64,000 nt of DNA from Verrucomicrobiota bacterium (GTDB lineage Bacteria > Verrucomicrobiota > Kiritimatiellia > SS1-B-03-39 > UBA6053), in assembly GCA_020831635.1 (NCBI GenBank), contig JAFIGC010000012.1, positions 1 through 64,000 of the forward strand. Reading direction: 5' to 3'. Positions within the stretch are counted from its first letter, which is position 1. Each line of letters begins with the position of its first letter. Made by a program: the position numbers and the translations under genes. The notes below the pieces were generated by a model. It was not told the origin of the DNA. It saw only the letters and a program-made list of their open reading frames with translations, and did no database searches. This document shows, piece by piece, positions 7,933 through 42,384 of the stretch.

Positions 7933-8160
7933 AAGCAGCGCGTCTCCGACGGATCTGACGGATCGGACTGATTCGTCGTAAGCCGGGAAGTGACCGAACT
8001 GGAGTATAAGAGTATAGCAACAGGTATTTTCTTTTTTCCAGCACGAATAAAAATTAACCACTGATAACACTGATTCACACTGATATTTAATAAATTTAAG
8101 TTAATAAAAAGTGTAGCCACAGGTGTTTTCTTTTATTTCGGTATATTCTTTTTACCTTGG

Positions 8161-8236: not shown

Positions 8237-8268
8237 CGACCGATCAGACGGATTCGTCTGATCGGTCG
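8237..8268. terminator. Perfect 14-base stem GATC hairpin
   Basis: CGACCGATCAGACG pairs perfectly with CGTCTGATCGGTCG around a GATT loop. It lies 43 bases past the stop of the minus-strand PEP-CTERM gene. On the minus strand it is followed by a T-rich stretch (TTTTTTGCC), so it should end that transcript. It belongs to the GATC repeat family. Confidence 0.7.
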
Positions 8269-8311
8269 GAGGTGTCGGAGCAACCCGGAGGAAGCCCGAT
8301 TTTCGCCTGGG

Positions 8312-10496: not shown

Positions 10497-10502
10497 GGCT
10501 GG

Positions 10503-10591
10503 GGATCCGACCGATCCGACCGATCCGACCGATCCGTCTGATCAGACCGATCCGACCGATCCGACTGATCCGACTGATCCGACGGATCGAG
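10503..10591. repeat. GATC 9-base tandem array between convergent genes
   Basis: About ten consecutive 9-base units of form GATCNGNCN (GATCCGACC x3, GATCCGTCT, GATCAGACC, GATCCGACC, GATCCGACT x2, GATCCGACG). Read in frame it gives repeated D-P-T, D-P-S, D-Q-T. It fills the gap between the regulator stop (10496) and the convergent sulfatase stop (10600), where a two-way terminator would be expected. Confidence 0.88.
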
Positions 10592-10599
10592 TAGCCCCC

Positions 10600-11988: not shown

Positions 11989-12020
11989 CGTTGTGTTTTT
12001 TTGGCGTGAAATCAAGGACA

Positions 12021-12075
12021 GACTGATCCGACCGATCAGACGGATCGGTCGGATCGGTCGGATCCGACTGATCGA
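12021..12075. repeat. GATC 9-base repeat overlapping a gene end
   Basis: Starts GACTGATCCGACCGATC and ends GATCCGACTGATC, with GATC about every nine bases and inverted ends. The minus-strand gene at 12036-12986 has its stop inside this array. Confidence 0.85.
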
Positions 12076-13047: not shown

Positions 13048-13797
13048 CTATTCACGCGGGTGCGAGAGGTGCAGGACCCGGGGTCTGCCGTTGGCCTGGG
13101 CATGGATAAGATAGAGATTTCCCGCGGTGTTTTCCCGCCAGACCGCCGTGGTGTGTATCATCCGGACGTCATCGCGTTGGTCATCCCGGGCATGGATATT
13201 GAGTCGGAAGCGGTCCCCGGCACTTCGCGGGGGCGGGGGAAGTAAAATTTCACCCCCGGGGGGGATCGCATGGACATTCCCCGCCATTTCAATGACCAGC
13301 GCCTGGTCGGTGAGGTTCAGAAAGCGAGAGGCTCCGTCGGGGATCTCCATCCGGGAGCTGGGAACCGCCAGCGTGGCCCAGGTCCCGTCGCTCTCCCGTC
13401 GCTCGGGGTAGACAATTACCGTGGCTTCCGTCCAGGAGGGATCGATGTTTGCCCGGATCAGGGGCACCGCCCGTTGCCGCGGCGGGCCTTCCTCCCGGTC
13501 CTGCGTTTCCACGCGGAACAGCACCGGAGGCTCCATGCCCTGATACCGCAGCGGCGGACTGAAGCCCGAGCGTTGCAATCCCACCCGCCGCATGCCGTTG
13601 AGATCCCGGACGAACACGGGAGGCAGTCCCTGCAAGTCCGCGTCGCCATGCAAAATCCCCGTCACCGGCCACGTGTACACCACCAGGGTAAGATCGTAGG
13701 TGGGCGGCGGCGGTTCCTCTTCGGGTTCCACCTCCGGCCTTGCCGGCAACAACCCGAGCAGGACGAAAGCCAAGAGCGCAAAACGAGGGTGCATCAT
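13048..13797 (-). CDS. Secreted hypothetical protein, partner of Verru_Chthon A
   Basis: About 249 residues. A signal-like N-terminus (MMHPRFALLAFVLLGLLPA) is followed by a Pro/Glu linker (EPEEEPPPPTYDL) and a beta-rich body. It overlaps the stop of the upstream Verru_Chthon A gene (ATGATG: start 13797 or 13794), with GGAGGAGG just before; 13794 gives better spacing. The tight overlap points to a shared job. I recognise no domain. Related pseudopilin cassettes in this phylum encode secretion-type complexes, so an accessory periplasmic protein is a reasonable guess. Confidence 0.6.
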   Translation of the reverse strand: MMHPRFALLAFVLLGLLPARPEVEPEEEPPPPTYDLTLVVYTWPVTGILHGDADLQGLPPVFVRDLNGMRRVGLQRSGFSPPLRYQGMEPPVLFRVETQDREEGPPRQRAVPLIRANIDPSWTEATVIVYPERRESDGTWATLAVPSSRMEIPDGASRFLNLTDQALVIEMAGNVHAIPPGGEILLPPPPRSAGDRFRLNIHARDDQRDDVRMIHTTAVWRENTAGNLYLIHAQANGRPRVLHLSHPRE

Positions 13798-16700
13798 ACC
13801 TCCTCCGGGTTCAGCCATCGGAAGGATATCACCTCGAAGCGCCTGCCGAAATTCCGGTTCACGGGGTTGACGTTTTCCGGATGCGTTTCCGGGGAATCCT
13901 CCGGATCCAAATAATCACCCGAACGGCGCACAATGAACTCACAATACGCGACGGCACCGGAATGGTGGCGGCCTTGGGCCCGGACCGTGAACGTGTCGGA
14001 GCGTGTCGTCAGCACGGCCCCAATGCGGGCGAGGAGATCGGCCTGGGTGAACGATCCGGGCGCGGAGTGATTGCGGGCCACCGAGGCGGCGGTGAGATCG
14101 TACCCCCGGAATATGGGCTGACCGTTGGTATGGGTTCCTGGAAAATCGGCGGACACGATTCGCGAGGAAGGATCGGCGGGGTGTTGCTGGCTGTCATTGA
14201 TGCCGGAACGCTCGATGGCGGCCTGCAACGCGCCCATCAGTCGGTGTCCCCGCGGATCCTGTTCGGGACGCAGCAGGCGGCGGTTCACGAAATCCCCCAA
14301 CGAAAGAAAGGGGCCGCGGCTTTGCACCTCCCGCACAATTTCCGCGGCAAGCGCGTCAATCTCCGTCGGGGAGAGCCGCCGGTAGCCGCTGTAGTTTTCC
14401 GTGTCGTCGTAGCGGTCGCCGGCGGCGGGGCTGAAGGCGGGGCCATGGGGACGGAGGAAGCGCGCGAAGGGAATCCGCTCCTCGTCGGGCGCGGCCTCGG
14501 CCCGCCCGGCCTGGTTCGGGATCTCCACGTCCAGCAGGCTGTAGAGCAGGGCCCGCCAGGCGTCCACGGACGTGGAGTTCACATTGAACGCCCCCGCGAT
14601 GTGTGCCCGGGTTCCGGAAAGGTCGAGGTCCCGTTCCGCAACGCCGTTCCCCCAGACGACGCGGCTGTTGGACGCGGGCGTGAAAAAGAAGTCGTCCCAA
14701 AACAGATGGTTCAAAATCCAGGAATGGTCGTAGAAGGCGCGGAAAGTGACAAAAACATCGTTGCCGCTGCCTCCGAAACCGTCGGAACCGCTCAAATGCT
14801 CCCGGGTGTAGGGGATGGAGGCGGGCGGGGTCTCCTCATCGCCGGGATAATGCGGGGTCGCGAAAAACGAGCGGACCACCCGATGGGCGTGCATCAGGGG
14901 GGGCTGCAGGGAGTTCCCGAACGCGTACGCCGGCGCGGCGGCGTTGTTCAGCCAGTGCTGGCGGGTGAGGCGGCTGTCCAGATCGATCCCGTTGCCCGGG
15001 TTTCCGTGGGACTGCGGATTGGCGTGCGCGAGTGAGGCCACGCTGACCACCTCGTCCGCGGAGCGGGGGATCTCATACAGGACGGCACGGGGGATTTCTC
15101 CCGTGGCCAACCCGCCTGACACGCCGTCGCTGTGGCCGATGAAGGCGTGACGGTCGTCAGGCGTGTGCTCCGCCAGGTCAAAGTAGGAGGGATCGATGGT
15201 GAAACCGCCGATATAATTCGCGGGGGCGTCGAACTCGAAACTGCCCCGGTCATAGCCCTGTTCCCGTCCGAGACCGCTGCGCGTTTGGTGGGCGGCGGCG
15301 GGATTGGAATGGGCCAGCCAAGCGACGGGCGCCTCCAAATTCAGGCGGTCCCCGCCCCCGGAGGCGGCGGCGTATTCATAGATGTTGTCCGGCAGCCGCA
15401 AACCCCAGGAGAGCCCCCACATGGGGAATCCCGGTGAAAATCCGGGGGAATTGAAGCGGAAGGGCGCGGAGGGGTTGAACGAAGGCGGGGGCCCCACGAT
15501 CTCCGGAAAGAGACCGGGATGGAAATGGGGGGTGGCGTGGTGCAGAACCTTGGGAACGTTATTGTGCAGACTGTGGGTGTAGGTCCAGGGACGGCGGGTA
15601 ATGTCGTTGGAGTTGGCGTTGGTCTCCAGCGTGTTTCCCCCCAGCATCAGGTGTGCCTGCCCGAGGCTGGTGTGGCTCACGAGGTTTGCCGCCCGGCGCG
15701 GGGATCCCATGCCGCGGATCATGATGGCGGCGGTGCGGTGGATTTCCCATCCGTTGTTCAGGTCCAGCCCCCCCTCGTTGAAGCACATCGCGCGGTAGGC
15801 GGGATCCAGCCCCCCGTTGGCGTCCGTGACGGCGTTGGTCCAGGTCGCGTCAGGATCGGAAAAGTACAGAGGGGCTCCGGCGTGGTCCCACCAGTTGTAA
15901 TGCCCCTGCGCGTAGCCGCTGTCCTGCGTGGAGGCGGAGTTGATGATTTTGGGCCGGATGTCGGGCTCCTCCACATAGAAACTGTATCCGCCCCCGTCAT
16001 GCAGGCCCGGGGTGAGCTGAATCCATTTGTTCTCCACATGTCCCAGAACCCCGGTGTCGATCCGGTGCGGCCAGAAGGTGTAGCCGGCCTGTCCGTCGTT
16101 GCGGACCACCTCGAACCGTTCGTGCGCGGGAAGACTGAAAATGACCGCGCCCCCCGCCGGAATTTCCGTGGCGGCCAGGCGGAAACGGAAGGAGTGTTCC
16201 CCCTCCACATGGAATTCCATCTTGTAGGGCGGAGTCCAGAACCGGCTCCCGCTGTTCCAGTTGGGATGGCTGACTTGAAAACTCAAACTGAAGCCACCCC
16301 CGTGCGTGCTTTCGGGCGCCATTTCCGCCACCAGAAAGTAATCCCGGGCGGACAGCGGCACCGAATAGGGATTCCACAGGATCACCGACGGCACAAGATG
16401 CAGACGGATGCGGGGGAAATCCATGGTGTGGTAGACCCCGAGATTGAATTTCGCGATCACCGGCATGGGGTTGCTCACGGTCGCGGTCTGGCGCGCGGGC
16501 AGCACCCCCTGGCCTTGCGATTGCCGGGCATGTACACTCGCCCAGGACATCAACTGTTCCCAGCGGGGACCTCCCGGATCCCGGGCCACCGTCAAATCGG
16601 AAAAAGGCGGAAAGAGCTGGACCCGATGCGCGTTCCCCCGCTGATCCGCCCGCGTCCCGATGGCGTTGAGCGCGTTCCACTCATGGGCGGGAAGTAGTCC

Positions 16701-17807
16701 CGGGTTTGCGGCGGGCAGCGCGTCCTGCTCGGCGGCCATCCGCTGCATCCGCTCCCCGTGAAAGTCGAGCAGGGCCTCAAACTGGGGGCCGCCGGGCAAA
16801 CGGTTCGCATTCCCCAGCGTCTCGTCAAAGACCGCGGTCAAATCCCGCTTCAGCCCTCCCCGGGCCGGCTGGGTGGGCAGTCCGTGCGCCAACAGCGCGA
16901 AATCATGGAAATGGTTCCGCACATCGGACGGCGCGTCCAAGCGGGCCAGGTGGAACTGCGAACGGGTCAGGGCCCGCATCAAATCCGTTTGATGAAGCGC
17001 GTTGTCCGGATCCGCGCCGGGAAGAAAGACCTCCGCGGCGGTGCGTTGCGCCGTGTGCGAGCGCCAGGGCGTGGTCTCGGGCTGCCCGTCCAGATGGAAC
17101 GGATCCACCAAATTCATCTGCGCTTTGGTGTTCTCCTGTCCCACCCAGTAGGCAAAACTCCCCCGAAGTTCTTGATCGGGGCCCCGCACTGCCTGCTCCG
17201 GAAGCGCGATGGCATCCTCCGGGGCGTTGACCGATCCCGGCCCCACCAGCAGGACGTGTCCCGGAAGCGGCTGGAAAGGCGCGTGAAACGTCGCCGCCTC
17301 TGGGTCCGGGTTTTCGCCCGAAACCAGCCAGCCAAGTGGAGTTGCATAGTCCGGATTCAGCAACAGCGAAGCTTCGTCATCTCTCCGGAACCTGGCGGTG
17401 TCCACAATCCCGGTCCAAAACCGGTTGTTCTCATGCGGTGTCCCCGCGCCGAAGGCATCCGGAGGAAAGGATGCCCGCGTGTCCGGTCCGGCAAGCTCCT
17501 GCAAACGCGCGATCGCCAGCTCCCCGCCCAGGCGGGCGTGCGCCCGTGCTTGCAACTGTTGTTGATGCTGCACCACGTTCCGCAGTTCCATGCGAACCAC
17601 CGTCACAAAGGTCAGAACCATGACCAGCAGCAGGCTGATCACCAGCAAGGTCACCAGTAGGGCGGAACCTTTGCGAGTGCGGAGTTCGGAGTTCGGAGTG
17701 CGGAGTGGGGGGGGACAGGAGCGCCGATCGCCGCATCGGCAGGGGCGAAGGGGGCTGGAGGTGCGTTGCGAATGCGGAGTGGGGATTGTGGCGTTTGGCG
17801 TTTTCAT
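13794..17807 (-). CDS. Verru_Chthon cassette protein A (pseudopilin-like)
   Basis: 1337 residues. After a ~45-residue lead there is KGSALLVTLLVISLLLVMVL, a type IV pilin-like membrane helix, then VVRMELRNVVQHQQQLQARA and HARLGGELAIARLQELAGPD. This is the conserved N-terminal signature of Verru_Chthon A proteins. The long remainder is beta-rich and aromatic (EYAAASGGGDRLNLEAPVAW). A surface or secretion role with pseudopilins is assumed for the family; no B, C or D cassette partners are visible here. Residues ~20-45 (RPCRCGDRRS, LRTPNSELRTRK) are translated intergenic repeats (see 17711-17754), and no other ATG precedes the membrane helix. Confidence 0.8.
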   Translation of the reverse strand: MKTPNATIPTPHSQRTSSPLRPCRCGDRRSCPPPLRTPNSELRTRKGSALLVTLLVISLLLVMVLTFVTVVRMELRNVVQHQQQLQARAHARLGGELAIARLQELAGPDTRASFPPDAFGAGTPHENNRFWTGIVDTARFRRDDEASLLLNPDYATPLGWLVSGENPDPEAATFHAPFQPLPGHVLLVGPGSVNAPEDAIALPEQAVRGPDQELRGSFAYWVGQENTKAQMNLVDPFHLDGQPETTPWRSHTAQRTAAEVFLPGADPDNALHQTDLMRALTRSQFHLARLDAPSDVRNHFHDFALLAHGLPTQPARGGLKRDLTAVFDETLGNANRLPGGPQFEALLDFHGERMQRMAAEQDALPAANPGLLPAHEWNALNAIGTRADQRGNAHRVQLFPPFSDLTVARDPGGPRWEQLMSWASVHARQSQGQGVLPARQTATVSNPMPVIAKFNLGVYHTMDFPRIRLHLVPSVILWNPYSVPLSARDYFLVAEMAPESTHGGGFSLSFQVSHPNWNSGSRFWTPPYKMEFHVEGEHSFRFRLAATEIPAGGAVIFSLPAHERFEVVRNDGQAGYTFWPHRIDTGVLGHVENKWIQLTPGLHDGGGYSFYVEEPDIRPKIINSASTQDSGYAQGHYNWWDHAGAPLYFSDPDATWTNAVTDANGGLDPAYRAMCFNEGGLDLNNGWEIHRTAAIMIRGMGSPRRAANLVSHTSLGQAHLMLGGNTLETNANSNDITRRPWTYTHSLHNNVPKVLHHATPHFHPGLFPEIVGPPPSFNPSAPFRFNSPGFSPGFPMWGLSWGLRLPDNIYEYAAASGGGDRLNLEAPVAWLAHSNPAAAHQTRSGLGREQGYDRGSFEFDAPANYIGGFTIDPSYFDLAEHTPDDRHAFIGHSDGVSGGLATGEIPRAVLYEIPRSADEVVSVASLAHANPQSHGNPGNGIDLDSRLTRQHWLNNAAAPAYAFGNSLQPPLMHAHRVVRSFFATPHYPGDEETPPASIPYTREHLSGSDGFGGSGNDVFVTFRAFYDHSWILNHLFWDDFFFTPASNSRVVWGNGVAERDLDLSGTRAHIAGAFNVNSTSVDAWRALLYSLLDVEIPNQAGRAEAAPDEERIPFARFLRPHGPAFSPAAGDRYDDTENYSGYRRLSPTEIDALAAEIVREVQSRGPFLSLGDFVNRRLLRPEQDPRGHRLMGALQAAIERSGINDSQQHPADPSSRIVSADFPGTHTNGQPIFRGYDLTAASVARNHSAPGSFTQADLLARIGAVLTTRSDTFTVRAQGRHHSGAVAYCEFIVRRSGDYLDPEDSPETHPENVNPVNRNFGRRFEVISFRWLNPEEV
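17711..17754 (+). repeat. Covarying hairpin element, in-gene copy
   Basis: Core GCCGATCGCCGCATCGGC at 17723-17740 flanked by GGAGC and AGGGGCGAAGGGGG. Immediately to its left (17677-17705) is the 7-base repeat CGGAGTT/CGGAGTG. Both lie inside the N-terminal coding region of the Verru_Chthon A gene. Confidence 0.85.
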
Positions 17808-17808
17808 A

Positions 17809-20800
17809 TCAGGCGTTCTCCGGAATAGACCGTTCCCGGGGTTCGCCGAGGCCGGTCAGGGGGGTGCCATCTTCCTCAAACGGAATCAGGGTCAACATGC
17901 GAAAATAGCGGATGGCTTGGGCGACATCCAAATCCACCAGCTTGGCTTGAATCCGGTGATGGCCCGGTTGCAGTTCGATCACGGGGGTGAAGTTTTTCTC
18001 GTCCAGCGGGAGTTCCCGTCCATTCACGGCGATGCTCAGGGTCTTGGTCAGGGCTTTGGCCTGGAACTTCACACGAACAGTTTCGACCACCTCGACTTCC
18101 GTGACCGCGGCCACATGAATCAACTCCTCCCGCAGCGCATCCTCCTGCATTTTGCCGTTGGGGGCGAACATGCCGATGTTTCGGCCAAACCGGTGGGCCA
18201 GCTTTGAGTCGCACCAGAGCCGGGGACCGTCCAGCAACGATTCCTCGCGCAAGTCGCGGTAGCGTTGCGGGAACCATTCGGAGGCGCCGAGAACCGGTCT
18301 TTGCGGGTCCAGGTCCGTGACCTGGGCCGCATCCGGGTTCCTCAGCAGGGCGATGTCCCATTCCCCCAGACCCGTGTAGAGATCCCAGGCGCAGGCGCTT
18401 TTGTCGGTGCGTTCCTCTTTGCCCCAGGTCCAGGTGACTTCCACCTCCCAGCGGATCGCCCCCGCCTCTTCGTTCCAGGAAAAGGGACAGGGCATGACCA
18501 CCGGGCGGGAAATCGAGCCGGTGCATTGGCTGATCCGCTCCGTGCGTACCTGTTGCGCGGTCCAGGTCACCACCGCCTCCGCGCCGTCCGCCGGGGGCAG
18601 GAGCACCAGATCCGCGAGGGAAACCCGCGCCTGGCGGCGGTCGTAGCGGGGACTCAATTCGGTGCGGGGCTCGCGCAGCGCAACCGGTGCGTTCGAACTG
18701 GCTGCAACCGTTGCGTGAATGCGGATTTCCGCCCCTTCCGACACCAACCGCGTCGGCAAGACAAGATGCAAGGTTCTGTCCGCCCATGTCCACTCCATGC
18801 CCTCCGGACCCTCAACGCGCTTCGGTTTGCCGGTGTTACGCAGATGAATGTGAGTGGCGCGCCGCGCGGGCAGTCCGGGGAAACGCCCCTCGGTGCCGTG
18901 CAGGGTCAGGGTGACCTCATCGCCGGTGCGCGCCTGTTGTAGGCGGGTGCGGGCGATCTCGCCGCGTTGCCAGCCGTCGCCCTCGCCGGCGTCTTCGATG
19001 GCCACGCCTTGACCCGATCCGGGCCAACACTCGAAATGAAGTTCGGAGGGGTCGAGATCGGCGATGGCCCCGCGCGGACGCGGATCGATGGGGAGCACCG
19101 CGCCCTCGCGGACAAAAACCGGAACGCGGTTCAGGTCGCCCTCGACCACGACAAAGGTGTCGCCCTCGTGCCGCAGGCCGGTTTGCAGATCGACCCAAGC
19201 ACCCGGCGGCAGCCAGACGCTGCGTTCGGCGCGTCCGCCCGTCATGGGCGCGACGATGGGGGCGATGAGCAGGTCTTCGCCCAGCATCGCCTGATGGCGG
19301 GCCGCGTGGGCGGCCGGGGCGGTCGGGTGCGCGAACCACATGGGGGCGAGCGGGGCTACGCCGGTTTCGGTAAAGCGATGACTGGCGGCGATCCAAACCG
19401 GGAAATAGCGCAGGCGCATTTCCACGGCCACCCGGCAGGCCGTCTCCACCTCGGGACTGTAGGCCCAGGGACGGCGTTCGTGTTTGGGATTGTTGGAGGA
19501 ATGCAGGCGTAGGGTGGGCGACCAGCAGCCCCACTGCACCCAGCGGGTGTAAAGTTCCGGCGGGGTGGGCTGCAGGTGACCGCCGATGTCATGACTCCAC
19601 CAGCCCGCCATGGAGGCGGCGCTGTTGGCGGTGAAATCCACCTGTGAGGCCAGGGTTTCCCATTTGGTGTGGGTGTCGCCCGAAAATTGAATCGGATAGC
19701 GGTGCCCGCCCAGACCGCCCCAGCGGGAAAGCATCACCCCGCGGCGGTCGGCGCGGTCGTGATCGAGGTGATGCAGATGGTTCAGCCAGGCCAGCGGATC
19801 AAGGCCGTGCATTTCACAGACATCGCCCTGTTGCCAGTCCATCCACCAGAAATCCACGCCTTCGTCCTCGCGGGGATGGTGGAGACGACGGAAATACTGC
19901 TCCATAAAGGCGGGGTCGGAGCAGCGGAACGCCACGCGAGAGCCGTCCGCCGGATGCCCCAGCGCCTTGGCGAAGTCGGCATAATCCGCCTCAAAAGCCT
20001 GCACGCCGTTGGAGGGATGCAGATTGAGGGTGACCTTGAGTTCCTGGCGGTGACACCATTGAAGAAAGGCGGGCGGATCGGGAAAGAGGTCTTTGTTCCA
20101 GGTGTAGCCCGACCAATCCTTGGCCAGATGCCAGTCCATGTCCAGCACCAACACATCCAAGGGGAAATCGTGGGCGCGGAATTCCGCCACGATGTCCTTC
20201 AGATCCTGATCGCTGTAGCGCCAGTAACGGCTCCACCACATGCCCAGCACCGCGCGAGGCGGCGGCGGGGGGCGACCGGAAAGTTTGATCACATCCGCAA
20301 GCGCCCCCGCGAAGTCGTGGCCATGAAGAAGCAGATAGAAATCCTGCCCCCTGGGATCGCCAGGACTAATGACGAATGACGAGTGACGAGTGACGGGAGC
20401 GCCGATCGCCGTATCGGCAGGGGCCGGGGGGGCGGGATCGCGTGAGGCAAATCGGACCGTCCCCGAATCGTCCACCACCGCCCAGCCGTCCCGGGAGAGA
20501 TAGCCGGGGGATGTGGGCGGATCGCCGGCGGTGCCGTCGAGGGTGCGGGTGGTACCGCCGAGGGCGCCGAGCGGGGTCATGCCCGGCCGCCAGGTGCCCA
20601 TGGGGAATTTCACCTCGGTGTTTTCGGCGGTGAAGGGGCCGTCACCGTTTACCCGGATTTCCACGGCGTCGGTGCGGTACACGCCGTCCGCGTCCGCAGT
20701 CAGTTCCCGCCCGTGCTCGCGGTGTTGGGCGAAAAACGAGGGACGGTCGTCAAAGGAGCCCTGCGGATGATACTGGAAGCGGATGAGACGGTTGGAATAG

Positions 20801-20817
20801 GCGGTGATGCGAAACAT
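17809..20817 (-). CDS. Glycoside hydrolase family 31 enzyme
   Basis: 1002 residues from ATG 20817 (MFRITAYSNRLIRFQYH); the frame is open further upstream through repeats but has no credible start. An N-terminal galactose-mutarotase-like domain is followed by the (beta/alpha)8 barrel: LDVLVLDMDWHLAKDW, then VDFWWMDWQQG with predicted nucleophile D327, and FSGDTHTKWETL with predicted acid/base D381. GH31 enzymes are retaining alpha-glucosidases, alpha-xylosidases and relatives. The extra ~300-residue C-terminal region is beta-rich and unassigned. A dispersed hairpin repeat is read in frame around residues 129-152, in the linker before the barrel. The stop is two bases from the next gene's start region, suggesting one operon with Verru_Chthon A. 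Confidence 0.88.
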   Translation of the reverse strand: MFRITAYSNRLIRFQYHPQGSFDDRPSFFAQHREHGRELTADADGVYRTDAVEIRVNGDGPFTAENTEVKFPMGTWRPGMTPLGALGGTTRTLDGTAGDPPTSPGYLSRDGWAVVDDSGTVRFASRDPAPPAPADTAIGAPVTRHSSFVISPGDPRGQDFYLLLHGHDFAGALADVIKLSGRPPPPPRAVLGMWWSRYWRYSDQDLKDIVAEFRAHDFPLDVLVLDMDWHLAKDWSGYTWNKDLFPDPPAFLQWCHRQELKVTLNLHPSNGVQAFEADYADFAKALGHPADGSRVAFRCSDPAFMEQYFRRLHHPREDEGVDFWWMDWQQGDVCEMHGLDPLAWLNHLHHLDHDRADRRGVMLSRWGGLGGHRYPIQFSGDTHTKWETLASQVDFTANSAASMAGWWSHDIGGHLQPTPPELYTRWVQWGCWSPTLRLHSSNNPKHERRPWAYSPEVETACRVAVEMRLRYFPVWIAASHRFTETGVAPLAPMWFAHPTAPAAHAARHQAMLGEDLLIAPIVAPMTGGRAERSVWLPPGAWVDLQTGLRHEGDTFVVVEGDLNRVPVFVREGAVLPIDPRPRGAIADLDPSELHFECWPGSGQGVAIEDAGEGDGWQRGEIARTRLQQARTGDEVTLTLHGTEGRFPGLPARRATHIHLRNTGKPKRVEGPEGMEWTWADRTLHLVLPTRLVSEGAEIRIHATVAASSNAPVALREPRTELSPRYDRRQARVSLADLVLLPPADGAEAVVTWTAQQVRTERISQCTGSISRPVVMPCPFSWNEEAGAIRWEVEVTWTWGKEERTDKSACAWDLYTGLGEWDIALLRNPDAAQVTDLDPQRPVLGASEWFPQRYRDLREESLLDGPRLWCDSKLAHRFGRNIGMFAPNGKMQEDALREELIHVAAVTEVEVVETVRVKFQAKALTKTLSIAVNGRELPLDEKNFTPVIELQPGHHRIQAKLVDLDVAQAIRYFRMLTLIPFEEDGTPLTGLGEPRERSIPENA
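20362..20430 (+). repeat. Hairpin element plus 7-base repeat inside GH31
   Basis: Core GCCGATCGCCGTATCGGC at 20401-20418, preceded by the 7-base repeat GACGAAT/GACGAGT (20371-20396) and followed by AGGGGCCGGGGGGGCG. The insert length keeps the GH31 frame open; it is translated on the minus strand as PADTAIGAPVTRHSSFVIS. Confidence 0.85.
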
Positions 20818-20820
20818 GGG

Positions 20821-20895
20821 GAGTGAGGAGTGCGGAGTGAGGAATGCGGAGTGCCGATCAGACGGATCAGTCGGATCGGTCTGATCCGTCGGATG
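20821..20895. repeat. 7-base GAGTGCG repeat followed by GATC palindrome
   Basis: GAGTGAGGAGTGCGGAGTG-type heptamers at 20821-20852, then GATC repeats at 20856-20893 (CGATCAGACGGATCAGTC ... GATCCGTCGG). It begins four bases upstream of the GH31 ATG, leaving no obvious ribosome-binding site except GGAGTG itself. Confidence 0.8.
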
Positions 20896-20948
20896 AGTGC
20901 GCGTTTCCGAGTGTCGGAAGCGCGCCAAAAACTTTTTCCGAGGGTCGG

Positions 20949-20988
20949 AAAAAAACACCCGGCAGGGGAGATCCGTGCCGGGTGTTTG
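20949..20988 (-). terminator. Rho-independent terminator of PEP-CTERM gene
   Basis: On the minus strand AACACCCGGCA pairs with TGCCGGGTGTT across ~11 bases, followed directly by TTTTTTTCC. It lies 20-60 bases past the stop at 21008. The strongest classical terminator in the window. Confidence 0.85.
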
Positions 20989-21007
20989 GTTTCGGGGAAA
21001 GAGGCGC

Positions 21008-21868
21008 TTACTTCCGGCGATGGAAGAGGGCCAGCGCACCTAACGCGATTCCCAGCAGCATCAAAGTGCCGGGTTCGGGGATGACGGTGACCGCTTCAAG
21101 ACCCGCGTCTCCTGAAAGCGTGCTCAGGCGCAGGGCATCAAAATAGGTTGTGCCTCCGGTGTTGCCGCGTTTTCCGATCCAAAGGGTGGTCACATCACTC
21201 AGAAGGGCCGAAGAGGTACTGACGGTTGGGGCTCCCAAATCTCCGGCGGTTAAGGGAATGGTGTCCGATTCTTCAAAAATCCAGACATCCAAACTGTTGG
21301 TTGTGGTATTGCCACGGGCAAGGAAGAGATAGGTGATGTCGGCGGTTGCCGAACCGGTCGTTGGGGCCGACCATGTCGAGGCATTCCCGGTGGCAATGAA
21401 AGGACGCAGTGTGGAACCTTCATTGTGCAAGCCAAAGGAAGTGGAAGTGTTGAAACTGGTGTTGGTGGGTTCTATGCTATTAACCGTTCCAAGGTTAAAG
21501 ATCGAGTAGCTATCAACGGTATCGTTTACATTCCGTTGGTGCAGGGCACTAAACCAGAACTCCCCGGACAAGGCGGTGCCTGAAACCGTGGTGTATGAGC
21601 CTCGGCCGTTCGCTTCACTTGCATTCGTCCTGGCAGCCCCAGTGTCCGCATTCCCCTGGGGGTTGTAGTTTGCGTTTGAAAAGCTGAGATTCACAGTGTC
21701 CACAAAACGAAGTTGATTCGTTCCACCGCCCCAATTCGTTCCGTTCGCCAAGTTGGAATCATTGGCCTCAAAATCATCGGGATGGAAATACTCTTCAAAA
21801 ATCAAGGTTGCGGAGGCGGTGGTCAGGGCGGTCAGTGCCGCGAGAAGTGTGATGATTCTTGTTTTCAT
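21008..21868 (-). CDS. Secreted PEP-CTERM protein
   Basis: 286 residues from ATG 21868, preceded by GGAGAAAAAGAAC. The signal peptide is MKTRIITLLAALTALTTASA. The body is Asn/Thr/Ser/Gly-rich beta-sandwich (EYFHPDDFEANDSNLANGTN; YFDALRLSTLSGD, a laminin-G/LamG-like ending). Sorting tail: VIPEPGTLMLLG, hydrophobic helix, HRRK. Expected to be exported and processed by exosortase. The open frame continues upstream to 21991, but that part has no signal and is rejected. It is divergent from the XylR-type regulator at 22064, which may control it. Confidence 0.88.
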   Translation of the reverse strand: MKTRIITLLAALTALTTASATLIFEEYFHPDDFEANDSNLANGTNWGGGTNQLRFVDTVNLSFSNANYNPQGNADTGAARTNASEANGRGSYTTVSGTALSGEFWFSALHQRNVNDTVDSYSIFNLGTVNSIEPTNTSFNTSTSFGLHNEGSTLRPFIATGNASTWSAPTTGSATADITYLFLARGNTTTNSLDVWIFEESDTIPLTAGDLGAPTVSTSSALLSDVTTLWIGKRGNTGGTTYFDALRLSTLSGDAGLEAVTVIPEPGTLMLLGIALGALALFHRRK

Positions 21869-22063
21869 GTTCTTTTTCTCCTGGTTTTGGGTATTCTTCG
21901 GTTTACACTGTTGCGTGGGGATGGATGTGGGTCGGATTGACTTGAGCAATGTGTCCGTTTCTTGATGTTTACATGATAAAGTGTCCCACAAAACCCGGAT
22001 TCTGACAATCCGCCCCAGCGAAAAACTTATTGTGTTTCAGCGCAAATCAGGTAGTTTGTCGGG

Positions 22064-23209
22064 ATGAGTGGCAAACAGATCTATTTTCTGGTGAACATGA
22101 CGACCTCGTTTGAGGAGCGGATTTTGCGGGGCATGGCCCGCTTCGCGCGGGCGCAAAACCCCCGTTGGAGGCTGAGGTGGGGGGCCAAGCTCGATGAGGA
22201 TATTTCAAAAGATTGTAACGGCATTGTGATGTTTGCGGTGAATCCAGACGCCTTGGCTCTGGTTCGGGACTGCGGTCTGCCGGTGGTGGCCACCAGCACC
22301 CGGCATTTGAAAGATGGCTTCCCCTGCGTGGTGACGGATGACCAGGCGATCGGAGAACTGGCCGCCACCCACTTTCGGGAAAGGTTCTACCGGTCGTTTG
22401 CGTATTTGGGCCCCGACAATGTCGCCTTCGGCGTGGCCCGTCAGCAGGCCTTCGCGCGGGCCCTGACCCCGGAGCCGGTGAGGGTGTTGCACCTGCGGGA
22501 GGGGGTCGCCCTTGAGGTGCGGCTGCGGGATCTGCGGAGGGATTTGGAACGGCTTCCGCCGCAAACGGCGGTGTTCTGCGCCAATGATGTGTTTGCGCGC
22601 ATGGTGCTGACGGTCCTCGAACACAGCGCCCGCAAGGTGCCGGGGGATCTGTCGGTGATGGGGGTGGATGCGGATGAACTGGTCGGCCTGAGCTGTCCGG
22701 TGGATTTGACCAGCATTGATTCCGCCCCGGAACGGATCGGGGAGCGGGCCATTGAACTCCTGGGACGCATGATCGACCGGCCCGGCCATGTGCCCGCGGA
22801 CCGGGTGGAGCGCGTGCGGCCCGCCGGCGTCGTCGAAGGCTCTTCCACGGATGCCCTCGCGACAGAGGACGCGTTGGTGGAGCGGGCCGGACAGTTGATT
22901 CGTCAGCACGCCTTCGACCGCGACTACAGCATCGACCAACTCGCGCGGGACACGGGGTGTTCGCGCCGTTCCCTGGAAGTCCGGTTTTCGGAGGTGACCG
23001 ATATGGGTATTTCCCGTCACATTTGGAAGCTGCGGATGGACCGGGCCAAGGAATTGTTGCTCACCACGCCCCGAACCCTCACGGAGATCGCGGAGGCCGC
23101 CGGGTTTTCCAGCGCCTACCATTTGTGCGAGAAATTCAAAAAAGAAACCGGGATCACGCCGGGGCGGTTTCGGAAAAAGAAGTCAGAGGCAAAAATGGAT
23201 CTGGGCTAA
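22064..23209 (+). CDS. XylR-family regulator (PBP-like sensor + AraC HTH)
   Basis: 381 residues. Residues ~5-265 are a LacI-like sensor (CNGIVMFAVNPDALALVRDC, TAVFCANDVFARMVLTVLE, LSVMGVDADELVG). Residues ~275-375 are an AraC-type DNA-binding domain (SIDQLARDTGCSRRSLEVRF; LTEIAEAAGFSSAYHLCEKF; ETGITPGRFR). The second such regulator in the window, a weak paralogue of the one at 9339. It is divergent from a PEP-CTERM gene, across a 195-base gap that must contain both promoters. The ligand is unknown. Confidence 0.87.
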   Translation: MSGKQIYFLVNMTTSFEERILRGMARFARAQNPRWRLRWGAKLDEDISKDCNGIVMFAVNPDALALVRDCGLPVVATSTRHLKDGFPCVVTDDQAIGELAATHFRERFYRSFAYLGPDNVAFGVARQQAFARALTPEPVRVLHLREGVALEVRLRDLRRDLERLPPQTAVFCANDVFARMVLTVLEHSARKVPGDLSVMGVDADELVGLSCPVDLTSIDSAPERIGERAIELLGRMIDRPGHVPADRVERVRPAGVVEGSSTDALATEDALVERAGQLIRQHAFDRDYSIDQLARDTGCSRRSLEVRFSEVTDMGISRHIWKLRMDRAKELLLTTPRTLTEIAEAAGFSSAYHLCEKFKKETGITPGRFRKKKSEAKMDLG

Positions 23210-23313
23210 CCTCAAAACACGGAGGATTCGAACAGAAGCACGCAAAGGGAGCGAAGGTTTTTCCATCGTGCTGGCTCTGCTCCCTCCGCGGCCTCCTGTT
23301 CAAAAATCCCGAT

Positions 23314-23357
23314 TTTCAAAAGCGCACCTTGCTTTTTGATATTTTTTGTGAAGTTTG
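23314..23357 (+). repeat. 44-base dispersed repeat, copy 1
   Basis: ATTTTCAAAAGCGCACCTTG followed by CtTTTTGATATTT and TGAAGTtTGAA. A second copy lies at 25432-25475 with only a few differences. Upstream, 23225-23262 holds an AACAGAAGCACGCAAAGG-type dispersed motif. Confidence 0.75.
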
Positions 23358-23406
23358 AATGGAGAACTCGTACCTCTACACGCAACCCGTCAACCTACAG
23401 AAAAAC

Positions 23407-24417
23407 ATGAAAACCATCGTCTTCAGCGCGGAGTCTTATGAACGGCCTTTTTTTGAGCGGATCAATGCGGCATACGGTCATGATCTGGGCTTTATCGAGG
23501 CCCAGCTCAATGCGGACACGGTGAGCCTGGCCAAGGGGATCGATTGCGTCTGTGCGTTTGTGAATGACCGCTTGAACGCGGAGATCCTCGAAAAGCTTTC
23601 CGAGGGGGGCACCCGCCTGATCGCCCTGCGGAGCGCCGGGTTCAATCACGTGGATTTGGAAGCCGCCGAACGCTTGGGGCTGCAAGTGGTGCGGGTCCCG
23701 GCCTATTCGCCCCACGCGGTGGCCGAACATGCCATTTGTCTGATGATGTCCTTGAACCGGAAAGTTCACCGGGCCTACAACCGGGTGCGGGAAGGGAATT
23801 TTCAACTGCACGGATTGATGGGGTTCGATGTGCATGGCAAAACCGTCGGGATTGTCGGCACCGGCAAAATCGGGGAATGCGCGGCCACGATTCTCAAGGG
23901 CTTCGGCTGTCGATTGCTGGGATTCGATCCGTATGTGAATCCCGCATGCCAAGCCCTGGGCATGGAATACGTGGACCTGAAAACGCTGTTCGCCGAGTCC
24001 GACATCATCAGTCTGCACTGTCCGCTGACTCCCGACACCAAACATCTCATCGATGCGGAGGCGATTGCCACCATGAAAGACGGTGTGCAAATTCTCAACA
24101 CCAGCCGGGGGGCGGTGGTGGACACGGCGGCGGTGATCGAGGCGCTCAAAAAAGGAAAAATAGGCAGCGTTGGTCTGGATGTGTACGAAGAAGAGGGCGA
24201 TTTCTTTTTTCGAAATCTGTCCAATACCGTGCTTCAGGATGATCAACTGGCCCGATTGCTGACCTTTCCCAACGTGATCATCACCGGACATCAGGCCTTT
24301 TTCACCGAGGAGGCCCTACATGGGATCGTGGACACCACCTTGGCGAACATTCAAAAAGTGGAGCGGGACGGGAAATCGGGGAACGAGGTTTCGATTCAAA
24401 AACATGTGGTTGGGTGA
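23407..24417 (+). CDS. D-isomer 2-hydroxyacid dehydrogenase (D-lactate dehydrogenase-like)
   Basis: 336 residues from ATG 23407 (an upstream in-frame ATG at 23359 lies next to a dispersed repeat and lacks a ribosome site). Motifs: LRSAGFNHVDL near residue 77, NAD-binding GIVGTGKIGECAATILKGFG near 150, SLHCPLTPDTKHLID, NTSRGAVVDTAAVIEALKKG with the catalytic Arg, GLDVYEEEGDFFF, and ITGHQAFFTEEAL with the catalytic His. The DVYE-x-E-x-x-FF segment is typical of fermentative LdhA. It would reduce pyruvate to D-lactate with NADH. It stands alone after a XylR-type gene. Confidence 0.88.
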   Translation: MKTIVFSAESYERPFFERINAAYGHDLGFIEAQLNADTVSLAKGIDCVCAFVNDRLNAEILEKLSEGGTRLIALRSAGFNHVDLEAAERLGLQVVRVPAYSPHAVAEHAICLMMSLNRKVHRAYNRVREGNFQLHGLMGFDVHGKTVGIVGTGKIGECAATILKGFGCRLLGFDPYVNPACQALGMEYVDLKTLFAESDIISLHCPLTPDTKHLIDAEAIATMKDGVQILNTSRGAVVDTAAVIEALKKGKIGSVGLDVYEEEGDFFFRNLSNTVLQDDQLARLLTFPNVIITGHQAFFTEEALHGIVDTTLANIQKVERDGKSGNEVSIQKHVVG

Positions 24418-24600
24418 GGGGTTGTGGGTTGCCAGTTGCTGGTTGCCAGTTGCCGGTTGAAAACCGTAGATCGGCAGTCCCTTGCCGATGATTTGTTTTC
24501 GGAGTAACGAGCGCGGCGAAGCCGCTTTGGAGTGCGTGTAGCGAGCTCTGCGAAGCTACCGCTTTGGGGCTGGAAGGGGCACCCAAACATTTCATCCGCC
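24418..24600. repeat. Repeat cluster after the dehydrogenase
   Basis: Begins at the stop codon with a heptamer array of form GTTGCCAGTTGCTGG (24421-24465), the same family as the array between nrdB and nrdA in reverse orientation. Then GATCGGCAGTCCCTTGCCGAT and an element containing CGCTTTGGAGTGCG and GCTACCGCTTTGGGG, which recurs near 58498-58560. Confidence 0.7.
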
Positions 24601-24610
24601 CATTCGAATA

Positions 24611-24853
24611 TTATAAATTTCTTTGGGCATTGAACCGTTCCACACTGGCGATGTAGACGAATGGGGCAAAGACAGGCGCACAAAGGAACAGCACAACCCA
24701 CAAGATCTTGTCATGCTTTGCGGGGAACTGATCGTCCTCTGATACCATGACACTGGTCAATGCCCTGAACCAGACCTTGCACAAGAACCAGATGAATCCG
24801 ATGATTCCTATGAACATCAGTAAGGGCAGGTATGGCAGTAAGCTGAAAATCAT
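24611..24853 (-). CDS. Small two-helix membrane protein
   Basis: 80 residues with two predicted membrane helices (MIFSLLPYLPLLMFIGIIGF and ILWVVLFLCAPVFAPFVYIA) joined by a polar loop. The second helix resembles PLD_N-type small membrane proteins, where a W-x-x-x-x-L-x-x-P pattern is common. Function unknown. It lies upstream of a repeat cluster and downstream of the lipoprotein-like gene on the same strand. Confidence 0.5.
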   Translation of the reverse strand: MIFSLLPYLPLLMFIGIIGFIWFLCKVWFRALTSVMVSEDDQFPAKHDKILWVVLFLCAPVFAPFVYIASVERFNAQRNL

Positions 24854-24945
24854 TCTATTTCTCCTTGGAAAGTTTTGGAGGTTTCAAAGCAGAGTGTAAG
24901 TGGGCGGTTGGAAAATCACAAGATGATTTGGAGTGATACTTTCAG

Positions 24946-25251
24946 TCAGAAGTTCGCGCTGGAAATGCGAAATATGAATGGTTCATTCTTCCGAACGCCA
25001 AACCGGATCATCCAAGTAGAATACCACCTCAAGGATTTCCTGGATTCGTTCTTCCGTTGCCCGCAAAATTTATATATGGTCCACGTGCCATCCGGGTTTT
25101 CGGTGGCATGAAACGCTCCATCATCCGAGTTTTCGCCGGCATGATACTCTTCTTCAGAGAGTTGGGGGCGAGGAGAACAGCCATTGTGCACCAACAGAAT
25201 CAGGGCACAAATGAGTGATAAAAAAAACGGGATGGGAGACTGAGTCGGCAT
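24946..25251 (-). CDS. Small putative lipoprotein
   Basis: 101 residues. A hydrophobic N-terminus FFLSLICALILLVHNGCS ends in a lipobox-like NGC with Cys at residue ~25, so membrane anchoring as a lipoprotein is likely. The mature part is short and charged (EEEYHAGENSDDGAF, DGTWTIYKFCGQR). No family recognised. ATG 25251 is preferred over a TTG at 25260. Confidence 0.5.
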   Translation of the reverse strand: MPTQSPIPFFLSLICALILLVHNGCSPRPQLSEEEYHAGENSDDGAFHATENPDGTWTIYKFCGQRKNESRKSLRWYSTWMIRFGVRKNEPFIFRISSANF

Positions 25252-25431
25252 GACTGACAATTTTCAGAGGATGATATCCGCTGTCAAATTTTATAGTGGG
25301 AATTTAACATGGGATGTGCGAATGGGCAAGCGGGCTTTTTATCTCCATCACGGAAGGGGGGGAGGGGGTATCGGTCCGATCCGACGGATCGGACGGATCC
25401 GTCTGACTCTCTTCACTTCCTATGCCGCATA

Positions 25432-25475
25432 ATTTTCAAAAGCGCACCTTGCGTTTTGATATTTATATGAAGTCT
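25432..25475 (+). repeat. 44-base dispersed repeat, copy 2
   Basis: ATTTTCAAAAGCGCACCTTG, then CgTTTTGATATTT and TGAAGTcTGAA; matches 23314-23357 at nearly every position. Confidence 0.75.
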
Positions 25476-25531
25476 GAAGGATCCAATATCACAACAGGAA
25501 TTTTCCGAAACGACAGGCGAGTAAAGGCCAA

Positions 25532-25578
25532 AGTCCCGACTTTAGTCGGAAGTCTACGAGCACCCTTCAGGGTGCGAT
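25532..25578 (-). repeat. Composite double-hairpin element, GCACCCT type
   Basis: On the minus strand: GCACCCTgaAGGGTGC hairpin, a short spacer, then CCGACTaaAGTCGG hairpin and GACT. About 47 bases, nearly identical to the plus-strand copy at 51873-51920. Confidence 0.8.
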
Positions 25579-25773
25579 ACGCGGCGGTAGAGGTCGAACA
25601 GGGAAGCCATAGCCTCTATCTTCATCATTCTCTGTATTCCTCTCGACTTCCGAGGAGATAGAGATCGAATCCACGCGAACAATGACCTCTGGCTCTGAAA
25701 TCCCGGACCGTGAACGGTCATAGAAAGTTTTGGGGAGATAGGGCGATAGAATGAAAAACCATGCAGGCGAAGG

Positions 25774-25836
25774 CCTCTGGCTCTGAAATCCCGGACCGTG
25801 AACGGTACTCTAGACTTCCGACTCAAGTCGGGACTT
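25774..25836 (+). repeat. Composite double-hairpin element, ACCGT type
   Basis: CCCGGACCGTGAACGGT (perfect ACCGT-GA-ACGGT) followed by GACTTCCGACTCAAGTCGGG. Same order and spacing as 8161-8216. The first half is also repeated alone at 25686-25718. Confidence 0.8.
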
Positions 25837-25851
25837 TGACGCGGGTTTCGT

Positions 25852-26613
25852 TTAGCTGCCGACTTTGATGAGTTCGACCTCGAAATCGAGCACTTGGTTG
25901 GGGCCGATGGCGGGCGGGGCGTTTTGGCCGTAGGCGAGGTTGGCGGGAATCCAGAAGCGGTATTTGGCGCCGGGGGACATGAGTTGCAGGCCTTCGGTCC
26001 AGCCGGAAATGACGCGGTCGAGGGGGAAGTTGACGGGTTCGCCGCGTTGTACGGAGCTGTCGAATACGGTGCCATCCAGGAGGCGTCCGGTGTAGTGGAC
26101 GGTGACTTCGTCGGTGGCATTGGGCTTGTCGCCGACGCCGGATTCGAGGATCTCGAACTGCAATCCGCTGTCGGTGGTGGTCACGGCTTCTTTGTCGGCA
26201 TTGCTTTTGAGGAAGGCCTGGCCCATTTCCAAATTGTCTTGGGCGGCTTGGGCGTTGTTGTCGTTGCCCGCGCCGGATTGTGCTTGCTGTTGCAGGGCCT
26301 GAAAGGCTTGGAAGGCGGCGGCAATTTCCTCTTGGGAATAGGCGGCGGGTTTTTCGGAGAGCTGATCTTCCATGCCTTGCAACATTTTGGGGGCGTCGAG
26401 ACCCTGTTGCATGGCCTGCCGGGCGCTGTGTCCGCCGGCGGCGTACAGCATGGCTTCTTCATCGAGGGTGGAGGTGGTGGCGGCCCGGAATCCTTCGAGA
26501 AATTTTCCGCGCAGTTCTTCGGGAATCTTTTCGGCCATTTGGGTGCCCTGGGAGAAGCCTTCCTGATAGCTGAGGGTTTCGAGTACGGGTTTGGGCAATG
26601 CGGTTAAATCCAT
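25852..26613 (-). CDS. FKBP-type peptidyl-prolyl isomerase
   Basis: 253 residues. The N-terminal ~130 residues are helical (FKBP_N/Mip-like dimerisation region, SYQEGFSQGTQMAEKI). The C-terminal ~105 residues are an FKBP domain: DEVTVHYTGRLLDGTVFDSS, PLDRVISGWTEGLQLM, PGAKYRFWIPANLAYG, NQVLDFEVELIKV. It catalyses cis-trans isomerisation at proline and helps protein folding. No signal peptide is visible, unlike most Mip proteins, so it is predicted cytoplasmic. It is followed by a repeat cluster and preceded by a 310-base repeat gap. Confidence 0.9.
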   Translation of the reverse strand: MDLTALPKPVLETLSYQEGFSQGTQMAEKIPEELRGKFLEGFRAATTSTLDEEAMLYAAGGHSARQAMQQGLDAPKMLQGMEDQLSEKPAAYSQEEIAAAFQAFQALQQQAQSGAGNDNNAQAAQDNLEMGQAFLKSNADKEAVTTTDSGLQFEILESGVGDKPNATDEVTVHYTGRLLDGTVFDSSVQRGEPVNFPLDRVISGWTEGLQLMSPGAKYRFWIPANLAYGQNAPPAIGPNQVLDFEVELIKVGS

Positions 26614-26923
26614 GGTTTTCCTTGTGGTTTATTGGGTAGGGGAGGGGTGACTTTCCTATGAAAGTCCACGAAATGGGGTTTGCACTTACCAGTCTTGGGA
26701 CGGGATTACAACCTTTTGCCCCGCCCGTATTCGTTCGAAGTTCGAAGTTCGAAGTTGGACGTTCAATGTTCGGCGTTCGGTTTCATTTCCCCCTTCGCCC
26801 CTGCCGATGCGGAGATCGGCGCTCCCGTCCCCCTTCGCCCCTGCCGATGCGGAGATCGGCGCTCCCGTCCCCCTTCGCCCCTGCCGATGCGGAGATCGGC
26901 GCTCCCGTCTGCCCCGAATTTCC
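26614..26923. other. Intergenic region with tandem hairpin elements
   Basis: Between FKBP start and UvrC stop. It contains GTTCGAA heptamer repeats (26733-26760), then three hairpin elements in tandem (26789-26910). Confidence 0.7.
26789..26910 (-). repeat. Three tandem 40-base copies of the covarying hairpin element
   Basis: Cores GCCGATGCGGAGATCGGC (plus-strand reading) at 26803-26820, 26843-26860 and 26883-26900, exactly 40 bases apart. The second and third 40-base units are identical, which suggests recent duplication. The array ends about 14 bases before the uvrC stop codon region. Confidence 0.9.
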
Positions 26924-28423
26924 TCAAAGCGCGGGATCTTGGGGTTTTTTAGCGGCGCGGTGCAGGGCCGCGTACACGGTTTCCGCAAAGGAGGGGCCGA
27001 TGCCGGGGGCGAGGGTGATTTCCTCCCGGGTGGCTTTCTGCAGACGCTGTACGGAGCCGAAATGTTGTAGCAAAATCCGTTTGCGCTTTTCGCCGATGCC
27101 GGGGATGTCGTCCAACAGCGATTCGCGGATGCGGCGATCCCGGAGGGAGCGATGATAGGTGAGGGCGAAGCGGTGGGCTTCGTCCCGAATGCCGCGCAAG
27201 ACCCGGAGTCCGGGGGAATTCATGGGCAATCGTACCGGGGGTTCGCGGTTGGTGACGTCCCAGACGATTTCCTCGAATCGTTTGGCGAGTCCCACGGCGG
27301 GCAGATCGGTCAGCCCCAAATCGTCGAGGGCCTTGCGTCCGGCGCGGAGTTGGGTGATTCCGCCGTCAAAGACGACCAAATCGGGCATGGGTTTGTTTTC
27401 CTTGAGCAGGCGGGCATAGCGGCGGTGCGCGGCCTCGGCGATCATGGCCGGGTCGTCGGGTCCCTCGGTGAACTTCATTTTGAAGCGTTTGTAGCGGGTG
27501 CGGTTGGGGCGTCCGTCCACGGCGCAGACCATGGAGGCGACGGCTTGGAGGCCCATGGTATTGGAGATGTCGAAGGTTTCGATGACCCGGGGGGTGACCT
27601 TGAGATGGAGGGCTTCGCGCAGTTCGCGCAGGCCCTGTCGGGCGTCTTCGCGGTCCCGGTCCAGATCGCGGGTGCCGGAGGCCCGCTGCCGCACGGCCCG
27701 GCGGAGTTGGGTCAGGGTGTCCCGCAAGTGCGCCGCTTTTTCGAAATCCAGTTTTTGGGCGGCGGCTTCCATTTCGCGCTGGAGGTCTTTGAGGATATTC
27801 GGACGTTCCCCCCGCAAAAACGCCACCGCTTCGGTGGCCCGTTCGCGGTAGGCTTCCAGGGAAATTTTGGCGATGCAGGGGGCGGAGCAAAAGCTGATGA
27901 TGTCCGCGAGGCAATGGCGATGCTGTTCGGGTCCGGGAAGGGTGGGGGCGCAGCGGCGCAGTCCGAAGTGTCGTTCCGCGAATTCTTTCGCGGTGCGGGC
28001 CGCGGTTGCGGAGGCGTAGGGGCCCAAATAGGTGGCGCCGTCGTTTTTGCGCAGGCGGACCACTTTGATGGCTGGGACGGGATCCTCGAGGTGAATGCGC
28101 AGGAGGATAAAGCGTTTGTCATCCTTGAAGAGGGTGTTGTAGTAGGGTTTGTATTCCTTGATCAGGCGGCCCTCGGTGAGAATCGCCTCCGCCTCGTTGT
28201 GCACGACGATGACGTCCAGATCGGCGATGCTGTTGATGAGTCCCCTGATTTTCGGATCGGCCCGGCGTTTGGTGGCTTGTTGAAAGTAATTGCGCACCCG
28301 GTTTCGCAGGGATTTGGCTTTGCCCACATAGACCACCCGTCCATTCCGGTCGCGCATGAGATACACGCCCGGTTTTGCCGGAAGTTCGGCCAGTTTGGTC
28401 TTGAGGGGTTCGGGGAGCTGCAT
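26924..28423 (-). CDS. uvrC: Excinuclease ABC subunit C, compact form
   Basis: 499 residues; most UvrC proteins have about 600. GIY-YIG nuclease: PAKPGVYLMRDRNGRVVYVG near residue 16. RRCAPT ... HRHCLADIISFCSAPC gives the four-Cys cluster pattern. UVR motif: LDFEKAAHLRDTLTQLRRAV. RNase-H-like second nuclease: IETFDISNTMG. Tandem HhH: DDIPGIGEKRKRILLQHFGS and LAPGIGPSFAETVY. It makes the dual incisions of nucleotide excision repair with UvrA and UvrB. The shortening lies between the UVR motif and the RNase-H-like domain; all catalytic parts remain. Confidence 0.94.
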   Translation of the reverse strand: MQLPEPLKTKLAELPAKPGVYLMRDRNGRVVYVGKAKSLRNRVRNYFQQATKRRADPKIRGLINSIADLDVIVVHNEAEAILTEGRLIKEYKPYYNTLFKDDKRFILLRIHLEDPVPAIKVVRLRKNDGATYLGPYASATAARTAKEFAERHFGLRRCAPTLPGPEQHRHCLADIISFCSAPCIAKISLEAYRERATEAVAFLRGERPNILKDLQREMEAAAQKLDFEKAAHLRDTLTQLRRAVRQRASGTRDLDRDREDARQGLRELREALHLKVTPRVIETFDISNTMGLQAVASMVCAVDGRPNRTRYKRFKMKFTEGPDDPAMIAEAAHRRYARLLKENKPMPDLVVFDGGITQLRAGRKALDDLGLTDLPAVGLAKRFEEIVWDVTNREPPVRLPMNSPGLRVLRGIRDEAHRFALTYHRSLRDRRIRESLLDDIPGIGEKRKRILLQHFGSVQRLQKATREEITLAPGIGPSFAETVYAALHRAAKKPQDPAL

Positions 28424-33187: not shown

Positions 33188-33189
33188 AC

Positions 33190-33418: not shown

Positions 33419-33434
33419 ATTCCCCGAAACCATT

Positions 33435-40975: not shown

Positions 40976-41018
40976 CCTTGGGAGCTGGATAGGGTCATGC
41001 GCTTTATAGGAATTCGGG

Positions 41019-42354: not shown

Positions 42355-42384
42355 TTTGGGGCATGGCTTTGACGGGGCCACGGG

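Follow-up and report, generated by a model that had tools for sequence, protein, structure and literature searches.

An in-frame REP-type hairpin element beside a heptamer array in a GH31 gene of a Verrucomicrobiota bacterium

The GH31 gene and its insert

In the 64,000-nucleotide stretch analysed here (the window), the minus strand carries a gene for a GH31 alpha-glycosidase with a pseudopilin-like ORF as its neighbour, and both are accompanied by short hairpin elements and tandem heptamers:

17809-20817, minus strand: GH31 alpha-glycosidase gene, 1002 aa from the Met at 20817 (Pfam PF01055, PF21365, PF17137)
20367-20394, plus strand: heptamer array of four units, TAATGAC GAATGAC GAGTGAC GAGTGAC (GARTGAC); the gene sense codes VTRHSSFVI, and contig C72 of the congener G003 (JAFIGD01, Verrucomicrobia bacterium isolate Super_Day4_Bin.15) has an array at the same place
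20392-20432, plus strand: REP hairpin element with GACG border, GGAG tag, stem-loop and degenerate GGGGCGAAGGGGG 3' flank; minus-strand translation APADTAIGAPV
20396-20418, plus strand: hairpin core GGAGC-GCCGAT-CGCCGT-ATCGGC (tag, 6-bp stem, 6-nt loop), with stem covariation across copies
20821-20855, plus strand: heptamer array directly upstream of the GH31 start, then GATCNGACN nonamers to about 20897
13794-17807, minus strand: pseudopilin-like ORF, Verru_Chthon_A / GspK N-terminus matched from residue 46-47
17674-17709, plus strand: heptamer array (GAGTGCG/GAGTTCG units) adjoining the second hairpin copy
17718-17740, plus strand: second copy of the hairpin, flanked on both sides by heptamers, within the N-terminal extension of the next ORF

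The likely start of GH31 is the Met at 20817, which lies 74 codons into the open frame that ends at 17809. Inside the gene, the array is followed by one G, then by GGAGCGCCGATCGCCGTATCGGC at 20396-20418 and by a degenerate G-rich 3' flank to about 20432. An earlier note had described a complete hairpin copy with a heptamer array in this coding region, around residues 129-152, that leaves the frame intact, and the sequence from 20341 to 20440 agrees: the GH31 frame crosses hairpin and array without a stop and reads the element as ...PAPADTAIGAPVTRHSSFVIS...; numbered from the Met at 20817, residues 133-142 are PADTAIGAPV, with HSSFVIS from 145. The GH31 copy is single, not one of an inverted pair, and over 64 nt is 80% identical to copies at 17696 and 58372. 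A phase-variation role for heptamer slippage in GH31 was weighed but not adopted, since the array is made up of four imperfect units.

By sequence as well as by fold, the nearest solved structure is 7wj9, the GH31 alpha-1,3-glucosidase of L. lactis, and the phmmer alignment with it has 22 gap columns in the insert stretch. In an AlphaFold2 model of GH31 (mean pLDDT 88.3), residues 127-143 are the sole internal segment with pLDDT below 50 and are predicted to be disordered; the insert site belongs to a loop in the N-terminal beta domain, preceding its last strand (158-163), and a helix (169-180) leads to the barrel, which starts near residue 183. The earlier note had placed the element in the linker between the N-terminal domain and the barrel. 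It does lie on the N-terminal side of the barrel, but within a loop of the beta domain rather than in a strict interdomain linker. According to this model, the insert is an unstructured Ala/Pro-rich segment (PAPPAPADTAIGAPVTRHSSFVIS) situated away from the barrel; it is probably translated and would be neutral to catalysis.

Given that a randomly placed hairpin preserves the frame one time in three, it might be argued that GH31 is a decaying pseudogene, or unexpressed, and that the in-frame reading is accidental. We consider this very improbable: the frame is open over 1002 codons, the active-site blocks are conserved, and dN/dS between this genome and G003 is 0.10 over the 260 codons after the insert.

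The hairpin family and its candidate transposase

Matches to the hairpin core with at most 3 mismatches number 231 in the 6.0-Mb genome, whereas the reversed pattern, used as a control, gave none. Further copies in the window are as follows:

26789-26922, minus strand: three tandem copies, 40-nt unit, upstream of an ORF
41018-41067, plus strand: one copy
42381-42465, plus strand: two tandem copies with different stems, AAT/ATT and GGT/ACC
45934-45987, minus strand: one copy
58386-58451, plus strand: two tandem copies, the second degenerate
58655-58709, minus strand: one copy, GGT/ACC stem
63032-63085, minus strand: one copy, AAT/ATT stem

Comparison of the copies yields the family consensus GGGG.G.AGGGGGAC[AG]-GGAGCGCCGATCTCCGCATCGGC-AGGGGCGAAGGGGG. 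Despite three stem versions (CCGAT/ATCGG, 101 copies; CCGGT/ACCGG, 20; CCAAT/ATTGG, 15), the stems pair perfectly in 136 of 144 copies, against 77 on average and at most 93 when the partners are shuffled; this count, like the other genome-wide hairpin statistics given here, comes from 1.26 Mb of the organism's own DNA, largely around known hairpins, and from a sample biased to hairpin contigs. With its 23-nt core, 6-bp stem and 231 copies, the family fits the description of GTAG REPs (a 20-40 bp palindrome, a 6-9 bp stem and high copy number), and alternative complementary stem types, as in the GTAG REP superfamily, are present. An unpaired terminal GTAG tag was not found; instead, about 99% of the copies found bear GGAG, which is not among the degenerate tags (GYAG, GYRG, GTRG and GTMG) permitted in that superfamily (PMC3733652). 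We therefore call the element REP-type, not a strict GTAG REP.

Pairs within 200 nt comprise 30 direct tandem and 10 inverted ones (156 copies); the majority of copies occur singly or in direct tandem, and inverted pairs are present at the gene for the RAYT (REP-associated tyrosine HUH transposase) described below. A single 33-nt hairpin folds no better than its shuffles (z about 0), and an inverted pair from contig C51 folds at z = -6.8. The family extends beyond this genome: copy numbers are 23-87 in the three congeners searched, and the genomes G028 and G040, which belong to another family of the class, have a loop variant. Rfam gave no match in 17000-27500.

The genome has 21 Y1_Tnp matches; among the best 10 of the 21, only the one on C51 is bracketed by inverted pairs of the GGAG hairpin. 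This protein (C51, 310-951) exceeds the cut-off of the NCBIfam REP_Tyr_transpos family (NF047646; 84 versus 80 bits) and contains a PNHVHVL motif, and comparison with G003 revealed a 77% orthologue (contig C53) that is likewise bracketed by inverted pairs of the GGAG hairpin family. On the strength of the family cut-off, the motif, the bracketing and the bracketed orthologue, the hairpin is, as judged from sequence, a REP element with its own RAYT, and the C51 protein presumably moves the hairpin copies. The bracketing of a RAYT gene by inverted REP pairs is shared with REPIN/RAYT systems (PMC3116915, PMC8049555); unlike in those systems, the copies here are mostly single or in direct tandem. 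In the other family of the class, the RAYT homologue of G040 has GGAG-type hairpins inside its own open frame (L287, 1447-1955), read as NADQTVGAP (..SGSADRLVGSSNSNADQTVGAPAQIW..), and the frame of the RAYT homologue of G028 (L283, contig C91) both begins and finishes with translated repeats (GPSTEPRGPSAEPR..) of 7 residues, or 21 nt.

Inserts in GH31 and in other genes

The earlier note had proposed a comparison with GH31 orthologues lacking the insert, and had named identical linker residues in all of them as the outcome that would speak against it. No such uniformity was found. The LSRDGW-to-HGHDF segment is 41-57 residues long in 102 GH31 homologues, mostly 43-44, compared with 63 here. 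In G003, which like the other genomes including the present one is a draft in many contigs, the syntenic orthologue on C72 has 58 residues in this segment and the paralogue on C14 has 43; the 58-residue version contains the heptamer array without the hairpin (PDSSLDTRHSSLPNTRHSSFVIQPG), and the paralogue contains neither (PDASLNIFPG). On the sequences compared, then, the array is common to the GH31 genes of both congeners and the hairpin is not. Since the array is common to both, it is older than their split.

The simpler reading of this distribution is that the hairpin was gained in the present genome, for which one event suffices. It could also have been present in the GH31 of the common ancestor and been deleted inside the array in the G003 lineage. 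Such a loss is made possible by a small, 3-nt phase break in the G003 array (CTCCCCAAC) where the hairpin ends here (ACTCCCCAAC at the corresponding array position), and arrays do mediate deletions in G003. However, no recognisable hairpin remnant is found at the G003 site and a gain takes a single event, so that we regard loss as somewhat unlikely. The earlier note took the in-frame copy as direct evidence of movement. This goes too far, in that the array is common to the congener and the site by itself accommodates both a gain here and a loss there.

A second comparison of this kind, at 17718, was rejected because the site is not clean in G003, where the neighbouring genes have become joined through a deletion associated with an array. 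At this junction (C72, L072, about 31240-31310), the deletion at a heptamer array fuses the GH31 C-terminus (..YTPVIRHSTLVIRHSTL..) to the pseudopilin ORF in a different frame, and leaves that ORF no ATG, GTG or TTG in frame there. In the present genome, the ATG at 17807 is the sole standard in-frame start upstream of the helix of the pseudopilin-like ORF, and the array and hairpin at this site would therefore be translated.

Hairpin copies are depleted from genes, about 4% being intragenic in the hairpin-biased sample: a codon-usage score placed 5 of 126 hairpins within one coding frame (4 of them convincing on reading), as opposed to 899 of 2000 random positions (45%). L209, which this score had flagged as intragenic, was dropped, as no single frame spans both of its sides. 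The convincing in-frame copies are those in GH31, in two Eco57I-like methylase paralogues (C60 and C7; Pfam DUF7149/DUF7814/Eco57I) and in a copper-type P-type ATPase (C227); the GH31 peptide stretch PAPADTAIGAPVTR has counterparts in the ATPase and the methylases. The methylase insert is found in both paralogues of this genome and both of G003, in every case as an SPxAPAxAxxGAPV-like peptide beside translated heptamer arrays. In these orthologous methylases (L239, L240, L243 and L246) the site is the same and the hairpin is kept, and the unit families of the arrays differ by species, as if arrays had been exchanged or overwritten. The ATPase insert (NKGAPITASAGATGAIS) occurs in this genome and in G002 and is absent from all 14 other homologues, those of G001 and G003 included; dN/dS between the two carriers is 0.04 before the insert and 0.12 after it. 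For the methylase and ATPase copies that species have in common, dN/dS of the flanks is 0.04-0.14, with the exception of the second methylase pair (0.27-0.45). Of 79 scored copies in the congeners, 6 fall within one coding frame; among these is a complete inverted pair in a 372-codon frame of G003. The in-gene inserts may prefer the frame that reads PxAPADxxIGAPV; this is only suggestive, because independent in-gene events are few (about six in the genus).

Contact with heptamer arrays is frequent. Within 60 nt of a period-7 tract lie 46 of 156 hairpins (29%), compared with 2% of random and 6% of noncoding-scored positions. Heptamer arrays may be preferred landing or retention sites for hairpins, by attracting them, shielding them from selection or swapping them through recombination. 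The commonest units beside hairpins are of the GAACATC/GAACGTC and GAGTGCG types, which are stop-free in every frame of one strand. None of the six frames of the consensus element is interrupted by a stop, which is also true of 105 of 154 actual copies; in the GH31 orientation, 138 of the 154 have all three frames open. With arrays stop-free on one strand and the element mostly open, in-frame insertion requires only a length that is a multiple of three. Nonamer (GATCNGACN) arrays were found beside none of the 156 hairpins (period 9). These self-complementary nonamers are themselves dispersed in the window (1303-1660, 7941-7989, 8240-8279, 10502-10595, 12014-12071, 20854-20897 and 25367-25427), and such an array lies close upstream of the GH31 start in both species. 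A long GCAACCA/GCAACCC heptamer array overlaps the end of an ORF at 33169-33447.

Origin and significance

We think it likely that the GH31 hairpin is a RAYT-copied, nonautonomous REP element that settled in an already translated array and extended a surface loop. A small repeat of this kind would be copied by the RAYT encoded in the genome, and a copy would enter a heptamer array that was already translated as part of the GH31 surface loop. As the reverse-complement strands of element and array are mostly stop-free in three frames, a total length divisible by three would suffice, and the product would gain the unstructured PAPPAPADTAIGAPVTRHSSFVIS segment in its N-terminal beta domain. Selection would remove most copies landing in genes, the survivors sitting where an extra loop is tolerated. 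Transposition of the hairpin is what we infer from these comparisons. That the element can move into genes and add peptide, as the earlier note had it, is supported insofar as the in-frame insert is missing from GH31 homologues and comparable copies occur in other genes; this falls short of direct proof of movement, and in-frame REP insertion was known before.

Alternatively, the hairpin may have come by recombination or gene conversion between dispersed arrays, entering the existing GH31 array as a ready-made cassette of array plus hairpin. One heptamer family does occur at many loci, often with a hairpin, and the 5' border GACG of the hairpin merges seamlessly into the GAGTGACG array. We nevertheless hold this origin to be unlikely, in view of the cognate RAYT, of the approximately 70% of hairpin copies that have no period-7 tract nearby, and of the ATPase copy, which is one of these. 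A more speculative and still less likely possibility, which builds on RAYT copying or array recombination alike, is that translated arrays serve as safe landing pads, encoding the same heptapeptide in every frame with no stop on one strand, to which either process preferentially delivers hairpins. Such a two-step system would build disordered loops again and again, frequently using a preferred frame: GH31, the methylase and a G003 protein all read PxAPADxxIGAPV.

Intragenic REPs were described in 2013 by Di Nocera and colleagues, who found REPs in general to be mostly intergenic, with some translated as 20-30 residues; most intragenic GTAG repeats were in Opitutus terrae, a verrucomicrobium (PMC3733652). 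The present family resembles theirs in its small hairpin with a 4-nt unpaired tag, its hundreds of copies, its inverted dimers and RAYT genes, and its mostly intergenic, sometimes in-frame location. It differs in its GGAG tag, its 13-nt G-rich direct-repeat flanks and its frequent contact with heptamer arrays, and species-level comparison and dN/dS are added here to what that report offers (PMC3733652). In-frame palindromes in genes were known still earlier from Rickettsia, whose palindromic elements, reported by Ogata and colleagues in 2000 and 2002, likewise add peptide to unrelated genes (as described in PMC10969869). The same account gives those elements as about 150 bp (RPE-1 type) or CGTC-tagged, of other sequence and phylum, and mostly located in genes, whereas the hairpin here is short and about 4% intragenic and is thus not of that type. 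Heptamer repeats are described as over-represented in many bacteria and little studied, and the tandem 7-nt repeats of Xanthomonas and Nostoc, as portrayed in the portion of that report used here, are similarly dispersed and under-represented in genes; their unit is different (GGGAATC, quadruplex-forming), and that portion reports no REP link (PMC4692102).

The GH31 hairpin is therefore a well-documented further case of a known but uncommon phenomenon, and what is new is a family that bears the GGAG tag and is enriched next to heptamer tracts. REP insertion is thereby connected with a poorly studied class of repeats. The family also provides species-level examples of a mobile hairpin as part of working proteins, such as the ATPase insert, which is missing from 14 homologues and present in two species, with the gene under strong purifying selection in both. 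Whether inserts of this sort amount to tolerated noise or supply the raw material of new loops, a long-standing question, can now be tested.
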